The notes under the pieces were generated by a model, which saw nothing but the letters and a program-made list of their open reading frames with translations, was not told where the DNA came from and did not search any database. This document shows, piece after piece, positions 38,920 through 50,354 of a DNA stretch of 52,179 bases. Source of the stretch: an uncultured bacterium (GTDB lineage Bacteria; Bacillota; Clostridia; Lachnospirales; Lachnospiraceae); assembly GCA_947063875.1 (NCBI GenBank), contig CAMSTY010000021.1, positions 1-52,179 of the forward strand. Reading direction: 5' to 3'. Position 1 is the first letter of the stretch. Each line of letters opens with the position of its first letter. A program made the translations under genes and the position numbers.

Positions 38920-39768
38920 ATGATGCGGTATGATCTGACGGAGACACATGAAGTCAGTTTGAAAATGCTGAAAGAAATTGACAGGATCTGTCGTAAATAT
39001 AAGATCAAATATATGCTGGATGCCGGTACGCTGCTGGGGGCAGTTCGTCATCAGGGGTTTATCCCCTGGGATGACGATGCCGATGTGGTGATGACCAGAA
39101 AGAACTACGATGCGTTTATGAAAGTAGTGAAACGGGAACTTCCGGATACAATGGAACTTCTGCTGCCTTCGGATTTTCAAAAGGGCCGGGCGTTTTTTGA
39201 TTTTACTGCGAGGATTTATTATAAAAACAGCCGCATTCATGAGGACTCTCTGGAAACGCAGTACTATGAAGGGAAAATGAACCATTTGTGGGTAGACCTT
39301 TTTACGCTCGATGTGCTTCCTCAGAATCGGGTAAATGCCGCCATAACCTTATTGCTGCACAAAATTGTGTATGGGATGGCAATGGGACACCGTTACCAGC
39401 TGGATTTCGGAAAGTACGGCGTTTTCTATAAGCTGGCAGTCAGCGGGTTGTCTGCGGCGGGACGCTTCATACCCATGCGGGTTTTGTTCGCTTTGCAGCG
39501 GATGATAGCGTTAAAGGACCGGAAATGCCGGAGTAATTTGTGCTATTACAGCAATTATCAGCCGGATTATCTGTATGTGACCTTGCAGAAAGAGTGGTGC
39601 GAGCAGATCGAAGATATTCCATTTGGCGATACCATGCTGATGGCGCCAAAACATTGGCACGAGGTATTGACCTGGATTTATGGAGATTACAAGAAGCTTC
39701 CGCCAAAAGAGCAGCAGGTTCCGTCTCATGCCACGGCGCAGATTCAGGTATACGATGAGGAAGAGTGA
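38920..39768 (+). CDS. LicD-family phosphotransferase
   Basis: LicD proteins attach phosphocholine or other phospho-groups to surface sugars. The 282-residue protein has the family core LDAGTLLGAVRHQGFIPWDD followed by DADV, in which the aspartates form the active site. A hydrophobic or amphipathic stretch lies near residues 145-185. It starts at ATG 38920 behind GAGGAGAG, 11 bases after rfbH, and its stop overlaps the next gene, so it decorates the same glycan. Confidence 0.88.
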   Translation: MMRYDLTETHEVSLKMLKEIDRICRKYKIKYMLDAGTLLGAVRHQGFIPWDDDADVVMTRKNYDAFMKVVKRELPDTMELLLPSDFQKGRAFFDFTARIYYKNSRIHEDSLETQYYEGKMNHLWVDLFTLDVLPQNRVNAAITLLLHKIVYGMAMGHRYQLDFGKYGVFYKLAVSGLSAAGRFIPMRVLFALQRMIALKDRKCRSNLCYYSNYQPDYLYVTLQKEWCEQIEDIPFGDTMLMAPKHWHEVLTWIYGDYKKLPPKEQQVPSHATAQIQVYDEEE

Positions 39769-40721
39769 CGGAAAAGAACATGGAAAAATTATTATCAGTA
39801 GTGGTGTCCGTATATAACGAGGAACAGGCGCTTCCTCTGTTCTATCAGACGGTAAAACCGGTTCTGGAAAAACTCGGCTGGGATTATGAGATTCTGTTTA
39901 TCAATGATGGGAGCCGGGATAACAGTCTGGAGATTCTGCGGGAACTGGCGGCGCAGGATGATCATGTGAAAGTGATCGGCTTTTCCCGGAATTTCGGACA
40001 TGAAGCGGCGATGATTGCCGGGATTGACTATGCCTGCGGGGATGGCATTGTGTGTATGGATGCCGACTTGCAGCACCCGCCATCCTGCCTGCCGGAGATC
40101 GTAAAAAAGCTGGAGGATAACTGCGGGGTAATCACGATGGTGCGCACACAGAATGCCTCTGCCGGGGTCGTGAAGAATATCACATCGGCTGGTTTTTACT
40201 GGTTGATCAATACGCTGTCTGACGTAGAATTTGAGCCGAATGCCTCGGATTTTTTTGCCATCTCGCGGCAGGCGGCGGACGTATTGCGGAAGAACTATCG
40301 GGAAAAGGTTCGTTTTTTGCGCGGATATGTGCAGAATATCGGTTTTAGCAGGGCGGCGATCCGCTATGAGGCGCAGGAGCGGGCGGCAGGGGAGAGCAAG
40401 TACAGCATCCGCAAATTGTTTACATTTTCCATTAACACGATCCTTTGCTTTTCCAATCTGCCCCTGAAGCTGGGGATCTACGCCGGAGGCCTGGCTGCCC
40501 TGATGGGGATTGCTGTGATGGTTTATACGTTATGTACCCGACAAGGGGCGCCCAGCGGATATGCGACGATTGTGATTCTCAATTGTTTTATGTTTGCCGT
40601 ACTGTTTTTGATTGTTGGGATTATCGGCGAGTATATGGCGATTCTGTTCAGCGAACTGAAGGACCGGCCGATTTACATTGTGGAAGAGATGAGAAATGTG
40701 GGGGAGAAACAAAAGAAGTAA
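39765..40721 (+). CDS. Polyprenyl-phosphate glycosyltransferase, GtrB/ArnC type
   Basis: This 318-residue GT2 enzyme transfers a sugar from a nucleotide donor to undecaprenyl phosphate. The catalytic part has VVVSVYNEEQALPLF, LFINDGSRDNSLEIL, GFSRNFGHEAAMIAG and the DADLQHPP metal site, followed by two C-terminal membrane helices (about residues 230-255 and 265-290), the plan of GtrB and ArnC. The start given is GTG 39765, overlapping the LicD stop; ATG 39780 is a possible alternative. It is the last gene of the glycan locus. Confidence 0.88.
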   Translation: MTEKNMEKLLSVVVSVYNEEQALPLFYQTVKPVLEKLGWDYEILFINDGSRDNSLEILRELAAQDDHVKVIGFSRNFGHEAAMIAGIDYACGDGIVCMDADLQHPPSCLPEIVKKLEDNCGVITMVRTQNASAGVVKNITSAGFYWLINTLSDVEFEPNASDFFAISRQAADVLRKNYREKVRFLRGYVQNIGFSRAAIRYEAQERAAGESKYSIRKLFTFSINTILCFSNLPLKLGIYAGGLAALMGIAVMVYTLCTRQGAPSGYATIVILNCFMFAVLFLIVGIIGEYMAILFSELKDRPIYIVEEMRNVGEKQKK

Positions 40722-40810
40722 AAGAAGCAAAAATAGGACCCTGAAATTTCTGTAATTGTACATTTTGTCTGGATTAGCGTAATATTTGATTCATTTATGG
40801 TGAATTTCGC

Positions 40811-40839
40811 TTGTACATTTTTGGCATTTTCGATATAAT
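40811..40839 (+). promoter_or_regulatory. Promoter for the phosphoribosyltransferase and possibly the downstream cluster
   Basis: TTGTAC (40811-40816) and a perfect TATAAT (40834-40839) are separated by 17 bases, 70 bases upstream of the next start codon. No terminator is seen between the phosphoribosyltransferase and the five-gene cluster that follows, so it may drive both. Confidence 0.75.
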
Positions 40840-40909
40840 GGAAGAAAGATCCAGAACACGTTTTTCGAGAGGTATTTCGGAAACAGCAATTGCAGAAAGG
40901 GGGACTATT

Positions 40910-41548
40910 ATGGAGACCAGGTATACGAAGATTCACACAGCGGGGACGAACGTGGCTTTGAAGGTGACGCCGGGACATTTTGCCACGAATCATTCCCATA
41001 TCAATTATTATCTGGATATGACTACGATGAAGACCAGGGCCAGCGAGGCTCAGGATGTGGCCAAGGGGATGATGGGGACTTATCTTTATGGACTGCTGGT
41101 GGATACCATTGTCTGTATGGAGGGCACAGAGGTTATCGGCGCCTTTTTATCGGAGGAACTGACCCGAAGCGGCGTGCTTTCCAAGAATATGCATAAGACG
41201 ATCTACATTGTACGGCCGGAATTTAACAACAACAGCCAGATTATTTTCCGGGACAATACGGCGCCGATGATCAAGGATAAGCATGTGATTATCCTGATGG
41301 CGACGGTGACTACGGGTTTCTCAGTGATGAAGGCCATTGAGAGTGTCCAGTATTATGGCGGAAAGCTGCAGGGAGTGTCTGCCATTTTCAGTGCGGTTCA
41401 CGAGGCTGGCGGAGTGCCGGTGCATGCGGTGTTCGGGAAGAAGGATTTGCCGGATTATGTGGATTATGATTATCGGGAGTGCCCGCTGTGCAAGCAGGGA
41501 CAGAGATTGGACGCCCTGGTGAATGCTTACGGGTATTCCAAGCTGTAG
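40910..41548 (+). CDS. Phosphoribosyltransferase-like protein, related to orotate phosphoribosyltransferase
   Basis: The 212-residue protein has the type I phosphoribosyltransferase outline: a long N-terminal hood region, a hydrophobic strand with HVIILMATVTTGFSVMKAI where the PRPP loop should be, and a C-terminal CPLC motif. In true enzymes that loop starts with two acidic residues (VDDVxTTG); here they are Met-Ala, so PRPP binding may be weakened or altered. The start is ATG 40910 behind AAAGGGGG; the upstream frame from 40811 begins inside the promoter. A 102-base gap separates it from the LRR gene. It could be pyrimidine salvage or a part of the neighbouring system. Confidence 0.7.
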   Translation: METRYTKIHTAGTNVALKVTPGHFATNHSHINYYLDMTTMKTRASEAQDVAKGMMGTYLYGLLVDTIVCMEGTEVIGAFLSEELTRSGVLSKNMHKTIYIVRPEFNNNSQIIFRDNTAPMIKDKHVIILMATVTTGFSVMKAIESVQYYGGKLQGVSAIFSAVHEAGGVPVHAVFGKKDLPDYVDYDYRECPLCKQGQRLDALVNAYGYSKL

Positions 41549-41650
41549 GCAGCGGAAACGCGGCGAAGACGTCGGAACATCCGCTAAGGACGGAAAAGAC
41601 CAGGCAAACAGAGGGTGAAGGAGAGGCAAAAGGAAGGAGAGGTGCTGCAT

Positions 41651-42505
41651 ATGGTGGCGAAGACCTATGCTTATGATTATGATGAGTATGAGGAGGGGAA
41701 GGGGCCGTCTACGATGGTCGCGGATATCCTGGCGGACCCGGAATTTGCCGGGGTGACGGACCTGACGATCGGAAGCTGGGGCAGTGCATATGAGGATGAC
41801 TGCCAGCCGATTATTGATGGGATCGTGGAGAATGCGGAGGCGTTTTCTCATATTGAAAAGCTGTTTATCGGGGATATGGATTTTGAGGAGTGCGAGGTTT
41901 CCTGGATTATGCAGGGAAACTATGACAAGCTGTGGGCAGCACTGCCTGGCTTAAAGGAATTGACGATCAAGGGAAGCACGGACCTGGGGTTGGGAGAGAT
42001 CTGCCATGAGAATCTGGAAGCGTTGACGATTATCTGCGGCGGTCTTCCGACAGGGATTATTGAGGAGATTGAGCAGGCAAGGCTGCCGAAGCTGAAAAAG
42101 CTGCTGCTTTATATTGGCAGCGACAATTACGGGTTTGACGGAAATAAGGATACGATTTGCAAGTTCCTGGAGAATGTGCAGCTTCCTCAGCTGGAATATC
42201 TTGGGATTGCAGACAGTGAGATTCAGGATGAGCTGGCAGAGGTGGTGCTAAAGAGTAAGTTTATGGGGCAGATTCATACCTTGGATTTGTCTTGCGGGAC
42301 GCTGTCGGATAAGGGAGGGGCGCTGATTCTGGAAACGCTGCCTAAGTATGGCAACATCAAGAAGCTGGATGTTCATTATCATTTTATGTCACAGGATATG
42401 GTGAAGAAACTGCGGGAACTTCCGATTGAGGTGGATGCCTCTGACGGGAATAAGCCGGACAGTTATCGTGGCGAGACTTATATGTACGCCATGCTGACAG
42501 AATGA
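41651..42505 (+). CDS. STM4015-family leucine-rich-repeat protein
   Basis: The 284-residue soluble protein is built of leucine-rich repeats of the ribonuclease-inhibitor type: IEKLFIGDM, LKELTIKGS, LEALTIICGG, LKKLLLYIGS, LEYLGIADSEIQDELAEV and IHTLDLSCGTLSDKGGALIL, ending with a conserved ETYMYAMLTE tail. Start ATG 41651 follows GGAGAGG. The gene order that follows matches Salmonella STM4014 to STM4011, which are uncharacterised, so I assign it to the STM4015 family from content and context. LRR proteins bind partners; it may be a scaffold, a substrate or a recognition factor. Its stop overlaps the next ATG by 4 bases (ATGA), so the two are translationally coupled. Confidence 0.82.
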   Translation: MVAKTYAYDYDEYEEGKGPSTMVADILADPEFAGVTDLTIGSWGSAYEDDCQPIIDGIVENAEAFSHIEKLFIGDMDFEECEVSWIMQGNYDKLWAALPGLKELTIKGSTDLGLGEICHENLEALTIICGGLPTGIIEEIEQARLPKLKKLLLYIGSDNYGFDGNKDTICKFLENVQLPQLEYLGIADSEIQDELAEVVLKSKFMGQIHTLDLSCGTLSDKGGALILETLPKYGNIKKLDVHYHFMSQDMVKKLRELPIEVDASDGNKPDSYRGETYMYAMLTE

Positions 42506-43587
42506 GGCAGGCAGCGGTTCTGGGAAAGCCGGATACGAAGCGGACTCATTATCTGGGACGTGCAGCTCGGGAAGCCGGGCTGCATGTCCTGTTTTTGGAT
42601 TGGGACCGATGGAGGACGGATTTTCCGGAAGGGGAGATTTTTCTGAAGATTGACCCGCCGGTGTGGGACAGCGGCCTGCTGGGGCAGCTGGGAGGCCTGA
42701 CAGAGGATTATCGGCGGCAGCTGAGGGAGATTGGGAAGCTGGCGGATGTGAGGGATATGGAGTTTCTCAATAAGCCGGAAGCGATTGAGGCGCTTTTGGA
42801 TAAGCAAGGGTGTAAAAGGCGTCTGGAGGCGGCCGGGGTATCGGTGTCGGAGGAAATAAAACCAGAGGAAGCGGGCCTGATTGGGGAGGCAGAGCAGCTG
42901 CTGGAAATCATGCGGGCCCGGCGGGTGTATCAGGTGTTTATCAAGCCGGTCTGCGGTTCCGGGGCGGCGGGGGTTGCGGCATTCCGGTGGCAACCCGGGA
43001 GCGGCCGGATGGTTTTGTATACCTGTGCGAGAGAGATGACGAAGGAGGAGATATCGGAAAGGAAAGCGGAGGAATCAGGCGGGAGCCTGGTGAATACGAA
43101 AAGACTGCAAAGAATCACGGATTCCGGTCAGGTGCTTTCTATGGTGGGAAAGCTTTTGAGCCTGGGGTGTATCGTGGAACGATGGTATGCCAAAGCGGAA
43201 TATCGGGGTTTTTCTTATGATCTGCGGGCAGTGGTGCAGGATGAAAGGATGGATTTCTGCCTGGCCAGGCTGTCAAAGGGTCCGATCACGAACCTGCATT
43301 TGAATAATCATCCTCTGGAATGGAAGGCGCTGGGGTTTTCGGAGAGAAAGGCGGAGGAGATAGAAAAGCTGTGCCGTCGTGCCATGGCGTGTTTTCCGGG
43401 ACTGCGAAGCGCAGGGATTGATATCTTGCTGGAGAAGGGGGGCATGAGGCCCAGGATCATGGAGATGAATGCCCAGGGGGACCTGATCTATCAGGATATC
43501 TATGGGCAGAATGTGATCTATCGAAGGCAGGTGGAGATGATGCGGGAAGCGTGCATTGGACAGAGCGGGACAGAGGAAAGAATGTAA
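42502..43587 (+). CDS. STM4014-family ATP-grasp ligase
   Basis: ATP-grasp enzymes join a carboxylate to an amine, thiol or other nucleophile through an acyl phosphate. The 361-residue protein has an N-terminal domain (AAVLGKPDTKRTHYLGRAA), an ATP-binding segment VFIKPVCGSGAAGVAAF and the metal and catalytic region RIMEMNAQGDL near the end; GIDILLEKGG precedes it. It overlaps the LRR gene by 4 bases and the next gene is read in the same direction. In the cluster it is the best candidate for forming an amide or ester bond on an unknown acid. Confidence 0.82.
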   Translation: MRQAAVLGKPDTKRTHYLGRAAREAGLHVLFLDWDRWRTDFPEGEIFLKIDPPVWDSGLLGQLGGLTEDYRRQLREIGKLADVRDMEFLNKPEAIEALLDKQGCKRRLEAAGVSVSEEIKPEEAGLIGEAEQLLEIMRARRVYQVFIKPVCGSGAAGVAAFRWQPGSGRMVLYTCAREMTKEEISERKAEESGGSLVNTKRLQRITDSGQVLSMVGKLLSLGCIVERWYAKAEYRGFSYDLRAVVQDERMDFCLARLSKGPITNLHLNNHPLEWKALGFSERKAEEIEKLCRRAMACFPGLRSAGIDILLEKGGMRPRIMEMNAQGDLIYQDIYGQNVIYRRQVEMMREACIGQSGTEERM

Positions 43588-43655
43588 CAGAAGTATGCAG
43601 AAGATGCGTTGAAACAGATGAAAGTACTGGACTCAAAGGAAGGGGAGGAGAGAAA

Positions 43656-44534
43656 ATGGGGCATAGCGGTCAGGAGATGGCCGGGGAGGTTCCTTTCCGG
43701 CTGTTTCTGTCTTCGGAGGGGAGCCGGGAGCCTTCCGTGGATATGGGGCGGGTGGTAGGAACGCAGGATATTTTATTCATTTGCCTGGACACTTTGCGGT
43801 ATGATGCGGCTGTGGAAGAGGAGGCGGCGGGAAATACGCCGGCGCTGAGCCGGTATGGCCCCTGGGAGAAGCGTCAGGCGCCGGGGAATTTTACTTACCC
43901 CTCTCATCATGCCATGTTTGCGGGATTTCTGCCTTGTGCTTTTGAGGCCAGGAATCTGGCAGAGCGGGAAATGTTGTTTTTCCCGAAGCAGATCGGTATG
44001 GGGAGGCGGGTTCCCAAAGGAGCTTTTGGGTTCTCGGGAAGTACAATCATGGAGGGGTTGGAAAGGGAGGGCTACGATACCTGGTGTGTGGGCGGCGTGG
44101 CTTTTTTCGACAAGCGCTCTGACCTGGGCAAAGTGTTTCCGGGATATTTTCAAAAAAGCTATTGGAATCCTTCTTTTGCCTGTCCGGTGAAGGAGAGCAC
44201 TGCCAATCAGGTGGATTTTATCCTGAAAAAGCTTTCCGGGGCAGATGCGGGGAGGAGGATTTTTCTTTATCTGAATGTGGATGCCATCCATTATCCCAAT
44301 TATTTTTATCTGGAGGGCGAGGAGAATGACAGCCTGAGGAGCCATAAGGCGGCGCTGCGGTATGTGGATGGGCAGCTGGGCAGGCTGTTTACCGGATGGA
44401 AGCAGATGCGGGGCGGCTGTTTTGTGATCTGTTGTTCGGATCATGGGACTTGTTATGGAGAGGATGGCTGTCTGTTTCACGGGATTAACCATCCGGCGGT
44501 GAACACGGTTCCTTATAAGCATTTTTTTATCTGA
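43656..44534 (+). CDS. STM4013-family hydrolase, alkaline-phosphatase superfamily
   Basis: The 292-residue protein is a small member of the alkaline phosphatase and sulfatase superfamily, which cleaves phosphate or sulfate esters or moves phospho-groups. Visible: metal-binding FICLDTLRYDAA, a nucleophile region NFTYPSHHAMFAGFLP in which a threonine or serine stands where sulfatases have Cys, and the metal site CCSDHGTCYGEDG followed by FHGINHP. The start chosen is ATG 43656 behind GGAGGAGA; an earlier frame start at 43551 would overlap the ATP-grasp gene. It belongs to the same transcript as its neighbours. Confidence 0.82.
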   Translation: MGHSGQEMAGEVPFRLFLSSEGSREPSVDMGRVVGTQDILFICLDTLRYDAAVEEEAAGNTPALSRYGPWEKRQAPGNFTYPSHHAMFAGFLPCAFEARNLAEREMLFFPKQIGMGRRVPKGAFGFSGSTIMEGLEREGYDTWCVGGVAFFDKRSDLGKVFPGYFQKSYWNPSFACPVKESTANQVDFILKKLSGADAGRRIFLYLNVDAIHYPNYFYLEGEENDSLRSHKAALRYVDGQLGRLFTGWKQMRGGCFVICCSDHGTCYGEDGCLFHGINHPAVNTVPYKHFFI

Positions 44535-44569
44535 TTTAAGCTGGATGGCGGGTTTTGGAGGTTGGTTTT

Positions 44570-46081
44570 ATGAATCCTTATGTGCAGTATATGTATAGTT
44601 ATCCTCATAAGACGGCGTATCGTCCATTGGAGGGAGTTTGCTTGGATGAGTATGCAGGATTGTTGGCGGGAAAGGGACATGGCCTTTATCTGCATGTGCC
44701 TTTTTGCCAGGGAAAATGTGGATATTGTAATCTGTTTTCGGTGACAGGACAGGATGCGCAGGCGATAGAGCGGTATCTGGATGGGGTGGAACGACAAAGC
44801 CGGCAGTATCAGGAGCTTCTGATGCCCTATGGAACGGAATTTTCGGAATTTACCATTGGGGGCGGGACGCCGCTTTTGCTGTCGGGGGAGCAGCTGGAGG
44901 GGATGTTTGCCCTGGTGAGGCGTCATTTTGCTTTGGAGGAAGGGGCGCAGATCGGGATTGAGACGGCGCCGAATCAGACAGAGCGAGGCAAGCTGGAACT
45001 TTTGAAGCAGGAAGGTGTTTGCAGGGTCAGTATGGGGATTCAGAGCTTTTTTGATGAGGAACTGGGAACGCTGAGGCGGGGGCACCGGGCAAACCAGGCC
45101 AGGGAGGCTCTGGGAATGCTGATGTCCATGGGATTTCCCCGTGTAAATGTGGATTTTATCTATGGAATTCCGGGACAGACGGTAGATTCCCTACAGGCTT
45201 CTCTGAGGGAGGCTGTCGGTTTTGGGGTGGATGAGATTTTCTTGTATCCTCTTTATGTGAAGCATGGGGCCGGACTGGTGCAAGAAGGCGTGGTAATAGA
45301 CCCCGAGTATGCTTATCTGCAGTATCGGGAGATGTGCGGGTATCTGCGGGCGGAGGGTTTCCGACAGGATTCCATGCGGCGGTTTGTGCGGAAGAGGGGG
45401 AGGAAAGCCCAAAAGGCATATTTGAGAGAAAACGGCGGGAATGATGACGTCAGAGAGGCGCATTTGAGGGGAAACGGCGGGAATGACGACGAGTGGAGGA
45501 AGGAGAAACGGGAATTCTCAGAATGCGGCTTTGGAACTTCGCTGGCCTTGGGATGCGGCGGGAGAAGCTATGTGGGAAGGCTTCATTTTTGCACGCCTTA
45601 TGCAGTGACCCAGGAGAGCTGCCTGGAACAGCTGAGAAGGTTTGAGGCTACGGCGGATTTCTCGAAAGTGCAGCATGGGATTTTGCTGTCTGAGGAGGAG
45701 CAGAGGCGGCGGTATGTGATTCGCCATCTGCTGATTCGTCCGGGGATTGCGTTGAGAAGGTATGAGGAAGCGTTTGGCTCTCCGGTGCTGGAGGATTTTC
45801 CGGTATTGAAGGAGTGGACGGAAAAAGGGTGGCTGCAGGAGGAAGAGGCAGGGGATGCTTATGGCCGGGAGAAGGATGAATTGCGGACAGAGGCTGCCGG
45901 TGCCAGTAACAAAGGAAAAACGCCGGAATGCTTCCTGACTTTGACGGAGGAAGGGATGGGACTTTCGGACTATCTGGGGCCAATGCTGGCTTCCGGCGAG
46001 GTATGGGGGAAAATGAAAGAATGGGAGGCAGTCTATGAGCCCAGAGGTGGTTTTCTATCGGGGGAGCCTGAAAAGCTGTAA
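44570..46081 (+). CDS. STM4012-family radical SAM protein (HemN-like)
   Basis: This 503-residue enzyme cleaves SAM with a [4Fe-4S] cluster to make a 5'-deoxyadenosyl radical. Cys46, Cys50 and Cys53 form the C-x3-C-x2-C motif (PFCQGKCGYCNLFS), and FTIGGGTPLLL is the glycine-rich SAM site; the VNVDFIYGIPGQT block is typical of HemN relatives. The C-terminal HemN_C-like part is present (RRRYVIRHLLIRPGIALRRY). It is not coproporphyrinogen dehydrogenase: the context and gene order match STM4012. A 14-residue unit is repeated twice at residues 283-310 (see separate entry). The start is ATG 44570 behind GGAGG; the stop lies inside the next gene. Confidence 0.85.
   Translation: MNPYVQYMYSYPHKTAYRPLEGVCLDEYAGLLAGKGHGLYLHVPFCQGKCGYCNLFSVTGQDAQAIERYLDGVERQSRQYQELLMPYGTEFSEFTIGGGTPLLLSGEQLEGMFALVRRHFALEEGAQIGIETAPNQTERGKLELLKQEGVCRVSMGIQSFFDEELGTLRRGHRANQAREALGMLMSMGFPRVNVDFIYGIPGQTVDSLQASLREAVGFGVDEIFLYPLYVKHGAGLVQEGVVIDPEYAYLQYREMCGYLRAEGFRQDSMRRFVRKRGRKAQKAYLRENGGNDDVREAHLRGNGGNDDEWRKEKREFSECGFGTSLALGCGGRSYVGRLHFCTPYAVTQESCLEQLRRFEATADFSKVQHGILLSEEEQRRRYVIRHLLIRPGIALRRYEEAFGSPVLEDFPVLKEWTEKGWLQEEEAGDAYGREKDELRTEAAGASNKGKTPECFLTLTEEGMGLSDYLGPMLASGEVWGKMKEWEAVYEPRGGFLSGEPEKL
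45416..45499 (+). repeat. In-frame 42-base tandem duplication inside the STM4012-family gene
   Basis: Two 42-base units begin at 45416 and 45458 and encode AYLRENGGNDDVRE and AHLRGNGGNDDEWR. They differ at several bases, so the duplication is not brand new. The Asn/Gly/Asp-rich segment is inserted in an otherwise HemN-like fold and looks like a flexible loop. Confidence 0.7.
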
Positions 46082-47573
46082 TTACCAATGCAGCTATTGT
46101 CCCTTTTCCAAGCATCGGACTTCTCAGAGAGAACAAGAACGCGACCGGAGGGAATGGTTTCGCTTTGTGAATCGTCTTGTCAAAGGAAAAGGGCCGGGGA
46201 ATGTTCGGGCCTTGATGGTGGCGCCTTACGGGGAGGCGTTGATTCATCCCTGGTACTGGGAGGGACTGGCGGAGGTCAGCCAGGCAGAGAATATGGAGGC
46301 CATAGGAGCACAGACGAATCTGAGTTTTCTACTGGAAAAGTCGCTGGAGTATTATGAAAAGTCCAAAGGAAAGGTGGAAAAGCTGCGGCTGTGGGGGACT
46401 TTTCACCCGGAGATGACCAGGCCGGAGGAGTTTGCAAGGAAGTGCAGGCAGGTATGGGACGCAGGAATTGCCCTCTCGGTGGGGGCAGTGGGCGTGCCGG
46501 GGAATCTGGAACAGATTCGGAGGCTGCGCAGCTTGCTGCCGGAGGAGATTTATCTGTGGGTGAATAAAATGGATGGTTTGAAGCGGGAGTATACGGAAGC
46601 GGAGAAGGAGGCGTTTCTGGAACTGGACCCTTATTTCTGGCAGGAACTGACGCCGGTGCCGGCGGATGTGGAGCAGTGCCGGGGAAGGCTTTTTGTGGAG
46701 AGCGACGGAAGGATGAGGATATGTAATATCGGGAGGGTGATGGAGGGAAACTGGTATGAGGAAGGTGGCGCGCATGGGCCGGAAGAGGAGGAGCGGGAAA
46801 ACAGAGGGCAAAACGTCCGGGGAATGCCTCTGCGGTGCGGCCGAAAGTGGTGCTCCTGTTATCTGGCATATGGAGGCCGGGCAGATTATATAAATCAGAT
46901 CTTGTTTGGCCCATATCCGGTTTTTCGGATTCCAAGACGGCCCAAAGCGGTGTTCTTAGATATAATGGGGACATTGTTACCGAAAGAGGCGCTGGGCGAG
47001 GGGAAAGGCTTGGAAAATTCCCGAGTCCCGCTTAGGACGAAGCTGGCGCTGGAAACTCTAAGGAGGGAGGGAACGCTTCTCTTTCAGGCCACCACATTGC
47101 CGGAGAAAGACGCCAGAGAAATCTGCCAGGAGATCGGAACGTTTTTTTCCGGCGGCGTATTTGCCGGGGGAGCGCACGTATATGCCGAGTGGGAAAATGG
47201 GCGGCAGGAATATTTTCACCGGTTAGAATGCGGTTCCCTGTCCGGGATAGAAGCATTAAAAAAAGAACTTGGCTTTCGGATGCTGTCCTATCGGAATGGG
47301 GAGATGCTTTATAAACTGACACTGGTTCGTCCGGGAAGGAGACCCTGGAACTGCGAGGAGCAGCAGCGGCTGGAGGAGGCCCTGGATCTTCGGTATCGGG
47401 GCAGGGTCCGGTGGGTTCGGGAGGATTTTTGCCTGCAGCTGGTAGCAAGAGAGGCCACTAAGGCCAACGGGGTGCGGATGATCTGCGGATGGCTGGGGAT
47501 TCCTTTGTCTGAGACCGGGGCGGCGGGGGATTCGCCGGAGGATGAGGAGATGACGGGATTGTGGAAACAATGA
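46035..47573 (+). CDS. STM4011-family radical SAM protein fused to a HAD phosphatase domain
   Basis: The first 300 residues are a radical SAM enzyme: Cys15, Cys19 and Cys22 (CNYQCSYC), LMVAPYGEALIHPWY, and a second cysteine set near the domain end (VEQCRGRLF, RMRICNIG, LRCGRKWCSCYL) resembling an auxiliary Fe-S cluster site. From residue 305 there is a HAD-like domain: nucleophile block AVFLDIMGTLL (Asp309, but Met311 where the general-acid Asp should be), a threonine motif FQATTLP and the C-terminal GDSPEDEEM metal motif. The two are in one frame of 512 residues with no stop. It overlaps the STM4012 gene by 47 bases, so expression is coupled. The HAD half may be a phosphatase or a degenerate binding module. 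Confidence 0.82.
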   Translation: MSPEVVFYRGSLKSCNYQCSYCPFSKHRTSQREQERDRREWFRFVNRLVKGKGPGNVRALMVAPYGEALIHPWYWEGLAEVSQAENMEAIGAQTNLSFLLEKSLEYYEKSKGKVEKLRLWGTFHPEMTRPEEFARKCRQVWDAGIALSVGAVGVPGNLEQIRRLRSLLPEEIYLWVNKMDGLKREYTEAEKEAFLELDPYFWQELTPVPADVEQCRGRLFVESDGRMRICNIGRVMEGNWYEEGGAHGPEEEERENRGQNVRGMPLRCGRKWCSCYLAYGGRADYINQILFGPYPVFRIPRRPKAVFLDIMGTLLPKEALGEGKGLENSRVPLRTKLALETLRREGTLLFQATTLPEKDAREICQEIGTFFSGGVFAGGAHVYAEWENGRQEYFHRLECGSLSGIEALKKELGFRMLSYRNGEMLYKLTLVRPGRRPWNCEEQQRLEEALDLRYRGRVRWVREDFCLQLVAREATKANGVRMICGWLGIPLSETGAAGDSPEDEEMTGLWKQ

Positions 47574-47725
47574 TGACGGCAGACGGACAGAGGCAGGGGG
47601 CAGAAGCCGTGCTTTTTTGAAAAACTCGCATCCTTTTTGAAATGAAAACTGACAAAAATGTTGTTATGATGGATTTATCCGTTCATCGGGAACGTTTAAA
47701 GTTTCGGCAAGGAGGAGAGAGAAAG

Positions 47726-48958
47726 ATGTTTGTGATCTATCAGGAAGGGATGAAAAAGCCGGTCCGGGTCTGGCTGGAGGGGAGAGAGCAGATAGAGGAA
47801 AGCTGTTTGCAGCAGGCATATCATCTGGCGGATCTGCCGTTTCTACACAAGTGGGTTTGCCTGATGCCGGATACCCACACAGGGAAAGGGATGCCGATCG
47901 GCGGGGTGATTGCGACAAAGGATGTGATAATTCCCAATGCAGTGGGCGTGGACATTGGATGTGGCATGAATTTTGTATCCACAAATGTCCCTGTGAAGGA
48001 GGTCCGTCCGGTGATGACCGGTAACGGAACGCTGGTGCAGGCCATGATTTCGGATATTATGCGGAATATTCCAGTGGGATATAATTCCCATAAGATGCGG
48101 CAGCCTTCGGCGGTCCTTGACCGGGCGCGGGAGCAGGAGGAACTTTACCGGCCCAATGAGGAATTGTATCCGCTGATTGAAGATGCCTATTATCAGGTGG
48201 GGACTTTGGGAGGCGGCAACCATTTTATTGAACTGCAGGAGGATACACAGGGATTTCTGGGGATTATGATTCATTCCGGCAGCCGTCATTTTGGGAAACG
48301 GATCTGTGACGATTACCACCAGAAAGCCCGTGTGCTCAATCAGATGTGGCACAGCCAGGTGCCGGATGAATACCGGCTGGCATTTCTTCCGGTAACATCC
48401 AGGGAAGGGCAGGAATATATTACCTGGATGAAGCTTGCCATGGAGTATGCGTTTGAGAATCGGCAGCAGATGATGGAGCGGGTAAAGGAAGTGGTGCGGG
48501 AAAAGGTGGGGAAGTTTCTGAACCGGCCGGTGGAATTTTCGGAGGAAATTAATTGCCACCACAATTATGCGGCGCTGGAACACCATTATGACGCGGATGT
48601 ATGGGTGCACCGCAAAGGAGCCACCCGGGCGCGGGAGGGCGAACTGGCGGTGATTCCAGGTGCGATGGGTTCCTACAGCTATGTGGTGCGGGGAAAGGGA
48701 AATCCGGAAAGCTTTTGCAGTTCTTCCCATGGGGCGGGGAGGGCCTATTCCCGGAAGGGGGCTATGGAGGCATTTACCTGCGAGAAGGTGATCTGTGACT
48801 TGAAGGAACAGGGAGTTGTGCTGGGGAAGAATAAAAAGTCGGATGTGGCGGAGGAGTGCCGTTTTGCCTATAAGGACATCCGGACTGTCATGCAGAACCA
48901 GCAGGATCTGGTAGAGGTGGTGACGGAACTTAAGACGGTGGGGGTGGTGAAAGGATAG
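47726..48958 (+). CDS. rtcB: RtcB-type RNA 3'-phosphate ligase
   Basis: RtcB joins RNA 2',3'-cyclic or 3'-phosphate ends to 5'-OH ends with GTP and manganese. The 410-residue protein has DIGCGM (Cys79, metal ligand), LGGGNHFIE, HSGSRHFG, and CSSSHGAGRAYSR with the guanylated histidine. The start is ATG 47726 behind AGGAGAGAG; an earlier frame start at 47642 lacks a ribosome site. It follows the radical SAM cluster after 152 bases in the same direction without a clear terminator, so it may be expressed with it or as a separate RNA-repair gene. Confidence 0.9.
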   Translation: MFVIYQEGMKKPVRVWLEGREQIEESCLQQAYHLADLPFLHKWVCLMPDTHTGKGMPIGGVIATKDVIIPNAVGVDIGCGMNFVSTNVPVKEVRPVMTGNGTLVQAMISDIMRNIPVGYNSHKMRQPSAVLDRAREQEELYRPNEELYPLIEDAYYQVGTLGGGNHFIELQEDTQGFLGIMIHSGSRHFGKRICDDYHQKARVLNQMWHSQVPDEYRLAFLPVTSREGQEYITWMKLAMEYAFENRQQMMERVKEVVREKVGKFLNRPVEFSEEINCHHNYAALEHHYDADVWVHRKGATRAREGELAVIPGAMGSYSYVVRGKGNPESFCSSSHGAGRAYSRKGAMEAFTCEKVICDLKEQGVVLGKNKKSDVAEECRFAYKDIRTVMQNQQDLVEVVTELKTVGVVKG

Positions 48959-49022
48959 GAAAGCTGCGGATTCTGCAAGAGTATTTTGCCGTGGGTTTTT
49001 GCCGGAATAGAATGCAGGTACA

Positions 49023-50354
49023 CTAGCTGGGGATGTGTTTTTTGTAGTAAAAATAGCAGGGAACCTCTACTAACAGCATGACGCTCCAGCCAATGGCGCA
49101 GGCAAAGGCGACTCCGTCGATGCCGATTCCGGGAACCAGGAGATAGACGAAGATTACCCGCAGGGAGGTTTGAATCAAGGTGCCCAGGAGGGGGAGGGCC
49201 ATGTTCCCCATTCCCCGGAAAAATCCCTGGAAGCCATTGGTAAAGCCGGGAAAGATATAGAAAACGGCCATAAGGCTTAAGTAACTGCATCCCAAGGCGA
49301 CTACTTCTGTCTCGCCGGAGCTGACAAAAAGCTGCATAAAGGGACGTTTTAGCAGCCAGGTAACGGCGCAAATCAGAATCCAGTAGGTAAATTCCAGGGT
49401 CAGCCCGGCGGCAAACCCCTGGGTGATCCGCTTATATTTTCCGGCTCCCCGGTTCTGGGCGGTAAAAGTAGTGATGCCGTGGGAGATGCTTTGCTCCGGC
49501 AGGCAGGCGTAGTCGTCGATGCGGGTTGCCGCATTATAGCTGGCAATAGCATTAATGCCCATGGTATTGACGCAGCCCTGGATGAGCAGCTTTCCCACCG
49601 GTTGGCAGGCCTGCTGGAGAGCGGTGACGGTCCCGTATTGCAATGTTCTCCTTAACAGTCCTGAGTCAATGCAAAATTCCTTTATCTCAAGCCGGAGCAG
49701 AGGGATTTTTCGGTATATGTAGCAAATACACAGAATGGCGGAAGCGCCCTCTGCAATCACGGTGGTTATGGCGGAACAGACGATGCCCAGGCGGAAAACG
49801 CCGATCAGGATGATATCCAGAATGCCGTTTAGTACGGAGGCAAAGGCCAAAAATTTCAGGGGGGTTTTGGAATCTCCGATGCTTTTTAATGCGGCGGAAA
49901 TAGCATTATAAAAATAGGTAAAGGGAGTGCCTAAAAAGACGATGCGCAGATAAAGGGAGGCAATGTCCAGGATCTCTTCCGGGACGGAAAGGAGTATTAA
50001 CAAAGGGCGTGAGAGGAAAAGGCCCAAAAAGGCAAGGGCCAGGGAGAAGTACAGTCCGAACACGGCTGTGGTAGCCATCTCTTTTTTTACGTTTTCCGGT
50101 TCGCCCGCGCCGAAAAATTCGCTCATCAGCACAGAAGAGCCGATGCAGATACCGGAGATCCCCAGAACCGTAATGTTCATCACCGGGTTGGCTGTCCCCA
50201 CTGCAGCGAGAGCCTCTTTTCCGATAAAACGGCCTACAATAATGGAATCTACCGCATTGTAGGTCAGCTGGAACAGATTTCCCAGGATTAAGGGGATGGA
50301 ATATGCAATCAGATGCTTGGTAATGTTTCCTTCGGTCATTTGGACAGCTGCCAT
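49023..50354 (-). CDS. MATE-family efflux transporter
   Basis: The 443-residue protein has twelve hydrophobic helices and the MatE repeats (ITKHLIAYSIPLILGNLFQL, then NAVDSIIVGRFIGKEALAAV, and the matching VSNGF/FTNGFQGFFRGMGN half). It exports drugs or cationic metabolites with sodium or proton coupling. The start at 50354 follows GGGAGG. It is convergent with rtcB, with a 64-base gap that shows no clear terminator. Confidence 0.9.
   Translation of the reverse strand: MAAVQMTEGNITKHLIAYSIPLILGNLFQLTYNAVDSIIVGRFIGKEALAAVGTANPVMNITVLGISGICIGSSVLMSEFFGAGEPENVKKEMATTAVFGLYFSLALAFLGLFLSRPLLILLSVPEEILDIASLYLRIVFLGTPFTYFYNAISAALKSIGDSKTPLKFLAFASVLNGILDIILIGVFRLGIVCSAITTVIAEGASAILCICYIYRKIPLLRLEIKEFCIDSGLLRRTLQYGTVTALQQACQPVGKLLIQGCVNTMGINAIASYNAATRIDDYACLPEQSISHGITTFTAQNRGAGKYKRITQGFAAGLTLEFTYWILICAVTWLLKRPFMQLFVSSGETEVVALGCSYLSLMAVFYIFPGFTNGFQGFFRGMGNMALPLLGTLIQTSLRVIFVYLLVPGIGIDGVAFACAIGWSVMLLVEVPCYFYYKKHIPS

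Follow-up and report, generated by a model that had tools for sequence, protein, structure and literature searches.

The window analyzed here (the whole 52,179-nucleotide stretch of contig CAMSTY010000021.1, assembly GCA_947063875.1, from an uncultured bacterium of the Lachnospiraceae) carries at positions 41651-47573 a compact cluster encoding STM4015, a leucine-rich-repeat (LRR) protein; STM4014, an ATP-grasp ligase; STM4013, a hydrolase; and STM4012 and STM4011, two radical S-adenosylmethionine (SAM) proteins. All examined copies of STM4015 end in glutamate, which is a new observation, and the predicted structure of STM4014 aligns best with RimK and LysX/ArgX, ligases for the C-terminal glutamate of proteins. 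Because the Glu is present in every copy examined and the ligase beside it is predicted to fold like enzymes that join groups to protein ends, we propose that the system builds on the last residue of STM4015. We lean towards a model in which STM4015 is an acceptor or carrier, STM4014 loads an amino compound onto its terminal Glu, and STM4012, STM4011 and STM4013 remodel what has been loaded.

The terminal glutamate of STM4015

All 112 distinct complete C-termini of STM4015, which fall into 24 groups at less than 60% identity, finish with Glu, and so did every member of a first set of open reading frames (ORFs; 97/97). The larger set derives from 160 profile hits, less one below 100 bits and one cut by the end of its locus; the remaining 158 complete C-termini gave 112 distinct ones when their last 220 residues were compared. 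The penultimate residue is Thr in 92, Ser in 8, Gly in 8 and Ala in 4 of these, and the third-last is L, V, I, Y, M or F. The tail ahead of the Glu is acidic and less conserved than the remainder of the protein, with Glu as its sole invariant residue; in the window it reads ...YAMLTE. No other family of the cluster has a fixed last residue, the nearest being the Leu that ends 53 of 97 STM4013 ORFs.

In the window, the Glu codon overlaps the STM4014 start (GAATGA), and translational coupling was therefore considered as the source of the terminal residue. It is ruled out by the 61 of 112 STM4015 genes that stop with TAA or TAG: sharing a base in this way is impossible for them, yet all encode a terminal Glu, which is thus independent of start-codon overlap. 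The residue is also retained by copies lying on contigs apart from other cluster parts and by those on plasmids of Streptomyces, Embleya, Deinococcus and Calothrix. One homologue has a solved, uncharacterised structure, 2RA8 (phmmer E 7.9e-64); its 362-residue chain aligns to residue 354, ending ...MITE, and the eight residues beyond are probably a tag. The window protein has no Pfam match at E 0.1 and is the single STM4015 match in its genome. Judged by eye, the STM4015 proteins of loci L115, L103, L044 and L108 bear an N-terminal extension resembling a WGR domain.

A preliminary description of the window had suggested that the LRR protein could be the modified substrate. The invariant Glu and the adjacent RimK/LysX-like ligase lend this support; the modification itself is what we infer.

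The ligase and its partner enzymes

STM4014 is predicted to adopt an ATP-grasp fold of the LysX/RimK type, and RimK is its top match both by VIA-align Z and by profile E-value. At E 0.001 in NCBIfam it matches only its own model and that of MptN (25.9 of 350 bits), in a library whose inclusion of a RimK model is unconfirmed. The residues invariant in alignments of STM4014 and STM4013 are all present in the window copies; for STM4013 these comprise an Asp, a Thr and an Asp-His pair (D16, T51, D233 and H234, numbered from 43743, in a 16-row alignment).

Both radical SAM proteins of the window keep the CxxxCxxC motif. In profile searches STM4012 hits HemN (1olt, E 8.7e-61) and NocN (9p2u, E 3.4e-35), and the HemN match spans profile positions 8-411 of 430, a sequence relation across the HemN chain; the HemN model TIGR00538 gives the window protein 125 bits, below its cut-off of 325. 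An insertion in the window STM4012 with an internal repeat (RENGGNDD, RGNGGNDD) lies at 45425-45490, before the SECGFGT segment at 45518. For STM4011 the closest fold match is BlsE, with SkfB, MoaA and viperin also among its fold neighbours. Its cysteines C15, C19 and C22 are conserved in at least 90% of 31 aligned rows, as is C268, and C215, C230, C273 and C275 are invariant, a pattern (CxxxCxxC plus C-terminal auxiliary cysteines) that points at the sequence level to a SPASM/twitch-type protein.

The radical SAM part of the window STM4011 comprises residues 6-300 and is followed by a Cof-type HAD-like domain, a fusion that the preliminary description had missed. STM4011 and HAD share one ORF in 60 of 88 stretches with STM4011 (HAD profile above 90 bits). 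Motif I of the HAD part takes the form DxDGT in 33 of 63 ORFs and another D..GT form in 22, the window's included, and the pattern was not found in 8. Since the window sequence from residue 309 on (46953-46973) is DIMGT, lacking the second Asp, phosphatase activity of this copy appears doubtful. Single ORFs also join STM4014 to STM4013 (L064) and STM4013 to STM4012 (L095, L101), on draft contigs only.

Conservation of the gene set

A script scored 99 stretches for strict gene order on one strand. All five families are present in 81 and the strict order in 76, spanning Bacillota, Bacteroidota, Actinomycetota, Deinococcota and proteobacteria. Some of the other 23 are cut by contig ends or split; three (L034, L041 and L043) hold an STM4013-like gene only, L103 and L108 show other arrangements, and L029 drops out solely because its stop-to-stop ORFs overlap, its annotated order being regular. 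Annotated plasmids of Salmonella, Paenibacillus, Streptomyces, Methylobacterium and Deinococcus carry the same order. In a Bacteroides finegoldii plasmid (L044:4983-7923), only an STM4013 fragment was seen between STM4014 and STM4011, and STM4012 was not found there.

The distribution is patchy. With the genome of the window included, 6 of 299 genomes from its phylum exceed the cut-off for STM4013, 3 of 291 from its class that for STM4015 and 2 of 100 from its family that for STM4014. Genome G404 carries the Phocaeicola locus L115; among 296 genomes of its phylum it is the only one above cut-off, and one further complete match falls narrowly short (273.6 of 275 bits). A pattern scan of species-level genomes returned at least 592 stretches, at least 579 of them with an STM4013 relative at E 1e-3; these relatives, found with a permissive pattern, need not all be STM4013 proper. 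Many of the best 80 of these stretches, which were retained, are named Lachnospiraceae. E. coli was rejected as a native host: by megablast, which distant copies can escape, no locus in any of 5426 complete genomes covers 80% of the Salmonella cluster. Some match occurs in 94 of the 5426, and the ten listed correspond to about 160 bases of a HAD gene.

Among whole genomes with STM4015, STM4014 is found in 19 of 20 (15 + 5 examined) and STM4011 in 14 of 15; because most of these genomes were found through a cluster member, the counts show retention of the set, not its frequency. In five genomes (G232 and G398-G401) the parts lie on different contigs or far apart, yet STM4015, STM4014 and STM4011 are all present. 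STM4015 outnumbers STM4014 five to one in G403 and two to one in G406, and there are two STM4015 genes per STM4014 in stretches of Streptomyces, Nonomuraea and two Deinococcus. This excess fits an acceptor better than an enzyme, an argument tempered by the 12 of 15 genomes with one copy of each.

A model for STM4015-linked chemistry and its alternatives

According to our model, STM4015 would be a ribosomally made acceptor whose LRR body docks the partner enzymes and whose acidic tail presents a C-terminal [T/S/G/A]-Glu. STM4014 would use ATP to activate the alpha or gamma carboxylate of this Glu and couple it to the amino group of a building block. STM4012, as a HemN/NocN-like enzyme, and STM4011, as a BlsE/SkfB-like enzyme with an auxiliary-cluster-like region, may then carry out two radical steps on the tethered intermediate, and STM4013, in some members together with the HAD domain, may strip phosphoester groups. 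Either the tail would eventually release a small molecule or the LRR protein would stay permanently modified; since no exporter is fixed among the neighbours, we favour a product retained by the cell or by the protein. Ligation, step order, pendant group and release are all parts that we infer. More tentatively, the whole may be an assembly line on a folded LRR carrier, in which the ligase loads a possibly nucleotide-derived amine and the radical SAM pair and phosphohydrolase rebuild it into an intracellular metabolite or protein-borne cofactor. The nucleotide origin of the amine is a weak hint, drawn from the neighbours of STM4013 relatives in L034, L041 and L043 and from the STM4011 fold neighbours BlsE, MoaA and viperin. 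Three observations weigh against the model: no release enzyme is evident in the set, genome G402 has STM4015 without STM4014, and other ATP-grasp folds follow close behind RimK and LysX/ArgX in the structural ranking of STM4014.

We consider it unlikely that STM4014 instead acts on a small molecule, with the STM4015 Glu serving only as a docking or recognition tag and the LRR protein as a scaffold that gathers the enzymes. Docking need not hinge on one very-terminal residue kept in all copies while the residues before it drift, and RimK and LysX/ArgX top a second structural comparison of STM4014, one in which the absence of a family carries no weight as evidence. A peptide-like core, in which STM4014 would form an internal, graspetide-like ester or amide from Glu to a side chain nearby and the tail itself would be the target of the radical SAM enzymes, strikes us as less probable again: Gly or Ala precedes Glu in 12 of 112 proteins, so that a Thr or Ser acceptor at this position is not required, and no tail residue besides Glu is invariant.

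The terminal Glu might also itself be the radical substrate, with its propionate side chain or the C-terminal carboxylate as the target of STM4012 and with STM4014 acting before or after. HemN and BlsE are decarboxylases, and HemN acts on propionate side chains; that HemN is the closest solved relative of STM4012 and BlsE the closest fold match of STM4011 speaks for this idea. However, NocN, a radical SAM methyltransferase, is likewise close to STM4012 and decarboxylation lacks direct evidence, and we give this idea very little weight.

Relation to known systems

The resemblance to LysW-LysX/ArgX is that acidic and aromatic residues of the acceptor lead up to a small residue and a final Glu, and that STM4014 is predicted to share the fold of the ligase. 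The C-terminal Glu of LysW is described as residue 54, in a protein with Zn-binding Cys and an EDWGE motif (PMC10433800). STM4015, in contrast, is a 284-residue LRR protein ending in hydrophobic-[T/S/G/A]-Glu, and in the window it is accompanied, in place of LysZ/Y/J/K, by a phosphatase-superfamily hydrolase and a pair of radical SAM enzymes. No EDWGE motif occurs in the endings of the 97 STM4015 ORFs or in 24 representative tails, and no LysZ/Y/J/K-type gene is among the five scanned neighbours (38920-50354), to which the search was confined; for these two reasons we do not regard the cluster as a member of the LysW-LysX group. RimK, the best match of the ligase, likewise acts on a protein C-terminus, glutamylating ribosomal protein S6 (RpsF), whereas the acceptor proposed here is a dedicated, co-encoded LRR protein with radical SAM partners. 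The cluster appears to work like LysW-LysX and RimK; it falls outside the LysW-LysX group, and no RimK model was listed for its ligase.

By fold matches (PsnB, SkfB, EpeE), the set also recalls graspetides and radical SAM-modified ribosomal peptides, where a gene-encoded chain is the substrate of ATP-grasp enzymes and of radical SAM enzymes with auxiliary clusters. Here, by contrast, the acceptor would be a large folded protein in whose tail a single residue is invariant, and a fixed exporter is absent among the neighbours. The conserved partner of STM4014 is the 284-residue LRR protein, small ORFs of precursor-peptide size having been outside the search.

Gene layout and neighbourhood

The five ORFs of the window are adjacent and co-directional in the order 15-14-13-12-11, and all score above the curated NCBIfam cut-offs (Table 1), which bears out the family identities and the Salmonella-like order that had been read from the sequence. 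The tight packing described earlier also holds: two junctions overlap, by 4 and 47 bases, and the other two leave gaps of 68 and 20-35 bases. The STM4013 ORF is open from 43551, and the ATG at 43656, preceded by GGGGAGGAG, is most likely its start. The window shares the five families and their order with the Salmonella STM4011-STM4015 locus, which differs in that its HAD gene is separate, directly behind STM4011, where the window has the fusion.

Table 1. Features of the STM4015-STM4011 cluster in the window
Feature	Coordinates	Strand	Evidence
STM4015-family leucine-rich-repeat protein, 284 aa	41651..42505	+	NF038076, 324 bits, cut-off 275
STM4015 variable tail, ends Leu-Thr-Glu	42413..42502	+	terminal Glu codon GAA at 42500-42502
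STM4014-family ATP-grasp ligase, RimK/LysX-like	42502..43587	+	NF038074, 327 bits, cut-off 175
STM4013/SEN3800-family hydrolase, alkaline phosphatase/sulfatase superfamily	43656..44534	+	NF038075, 382 bits, cut-off 250; PF00884 E 2.3e-10
STM4012-family radical SAM protein, HemN/NocN-like	44570 (ATG; TTG 44555 also possible)..46081	+	NF006067, 459 bits, cut-off 380
STM4011 gene, whole ORF	46035-47573	+	NF038073, 279 bits, cut-off 200
STM4011-family radical SAM domain, C-terminal Cys-rich SPASM/twitch-like region	46035..46934	+	
Cof-type HAD-like domain fused to STM4011	46938..47573 (start approximate)	+	PF08282 E 2.3e-8, residues 444-506

Groups recurring in at least 4 of 63 representative stretches, formed by blastp of ORFs of at least 90 residues and named by eye, were ABC-transporter-type (17), MATE-type (9), PAS-sensor-like (7) and AAA-ATPase-like (4); flanks were often cut by contig ends, and small or divergent partners can be missed. 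None of the four is fixed, and a fixed transporter partner is rejected on these counts, which carry no background control. The earlier suggestion of a natural-product pathway is accordingly the weaker half of the original proposal. The five neighbouring proteins scanned in the window (38920-50354) are LicD, GT2, PRTase-like, RtcB and MATE proteins; the RtcB-family RNA ligase gene (47642-48958) follows the cluster after 68 bases. We rejected RtcB, LicD, GT2 and the PRTase-like gene as cluster parts, since no such group recurred in at least 4 of the 63 stretches. A role in anti-phage defence was also rejected, PADLOC giving one weak match to each radical SAM protein (26 and 19 bits) and none to the other three.

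On plasmids of Streptomyces, Methylobacterium and Deinococcus (L029-L033, L180), a DUF6745 protein and a protein of about 100 residues adjoin the cluster; a function search gave none for either, and in Methylobacterium and one Deinococcus the N-terminal part of the DUF6745 protein looks LRR-like by eye. A second operon with an STM4013-like hydrolase occurs on plasmids of Streptomyces albidoflavus and Kitasatospora (L034:7890-11339, L041:7843-11262), in the order MoaA-like radical SAM, thymidylate-kinase-like, a protein of about 160 residues, STM4013-like and NUDIX, as assigned by Pfam on L034 and judged from ORF order on L041; the protein of about 160 residues has no Pfam match in L034. On an Agrobacterium Ti plasmid (L043:6100-7454), a distant STM4013-like hydrolase adjoins a GTP cyclohydrolase II-like protein (PF00925).

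Implications

The gene families already have names; a function for the set is absent from print as far as our literature search reached. In agreement with the preliminary description, that search, outside which lay most subscription papers and all preprints, found no functional study of the STM4011-STM4015 set, whose locus tags it met in print only in two papers, as a single table entry in each. One such table places a sigma-54 binding site at STM4013 of Salmonella Typhimurium LT2, oriented opposite to the gene (PMC3844500). A term search of two ATP-grasp surveys (PMC4431377, PMC8939145) found "STM4014" and "LRR" in neither, and the NCBIfam annotation of the five families does not go beyond the terms hydrolase and radical SAM protein.

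We know of no earlier example of C-terminal-Glu chemistry on an LRR protein. If the model is correct, the cluster would represent a third kind of such chemistry, after LysW-type carriers and RimK, and new chemistry would probably also be involved where the two radical SAM enzymes act on a tethered substrate. The combination of a terminal Glu and a RimK/LysX-like ligase reduces five uncharacterised families to one testable reaction, the formation of a covalent adduct on a defined residue, in a gene set shared by gut bacteria, Salmonella, soil actinomycetes and Deinococcus.

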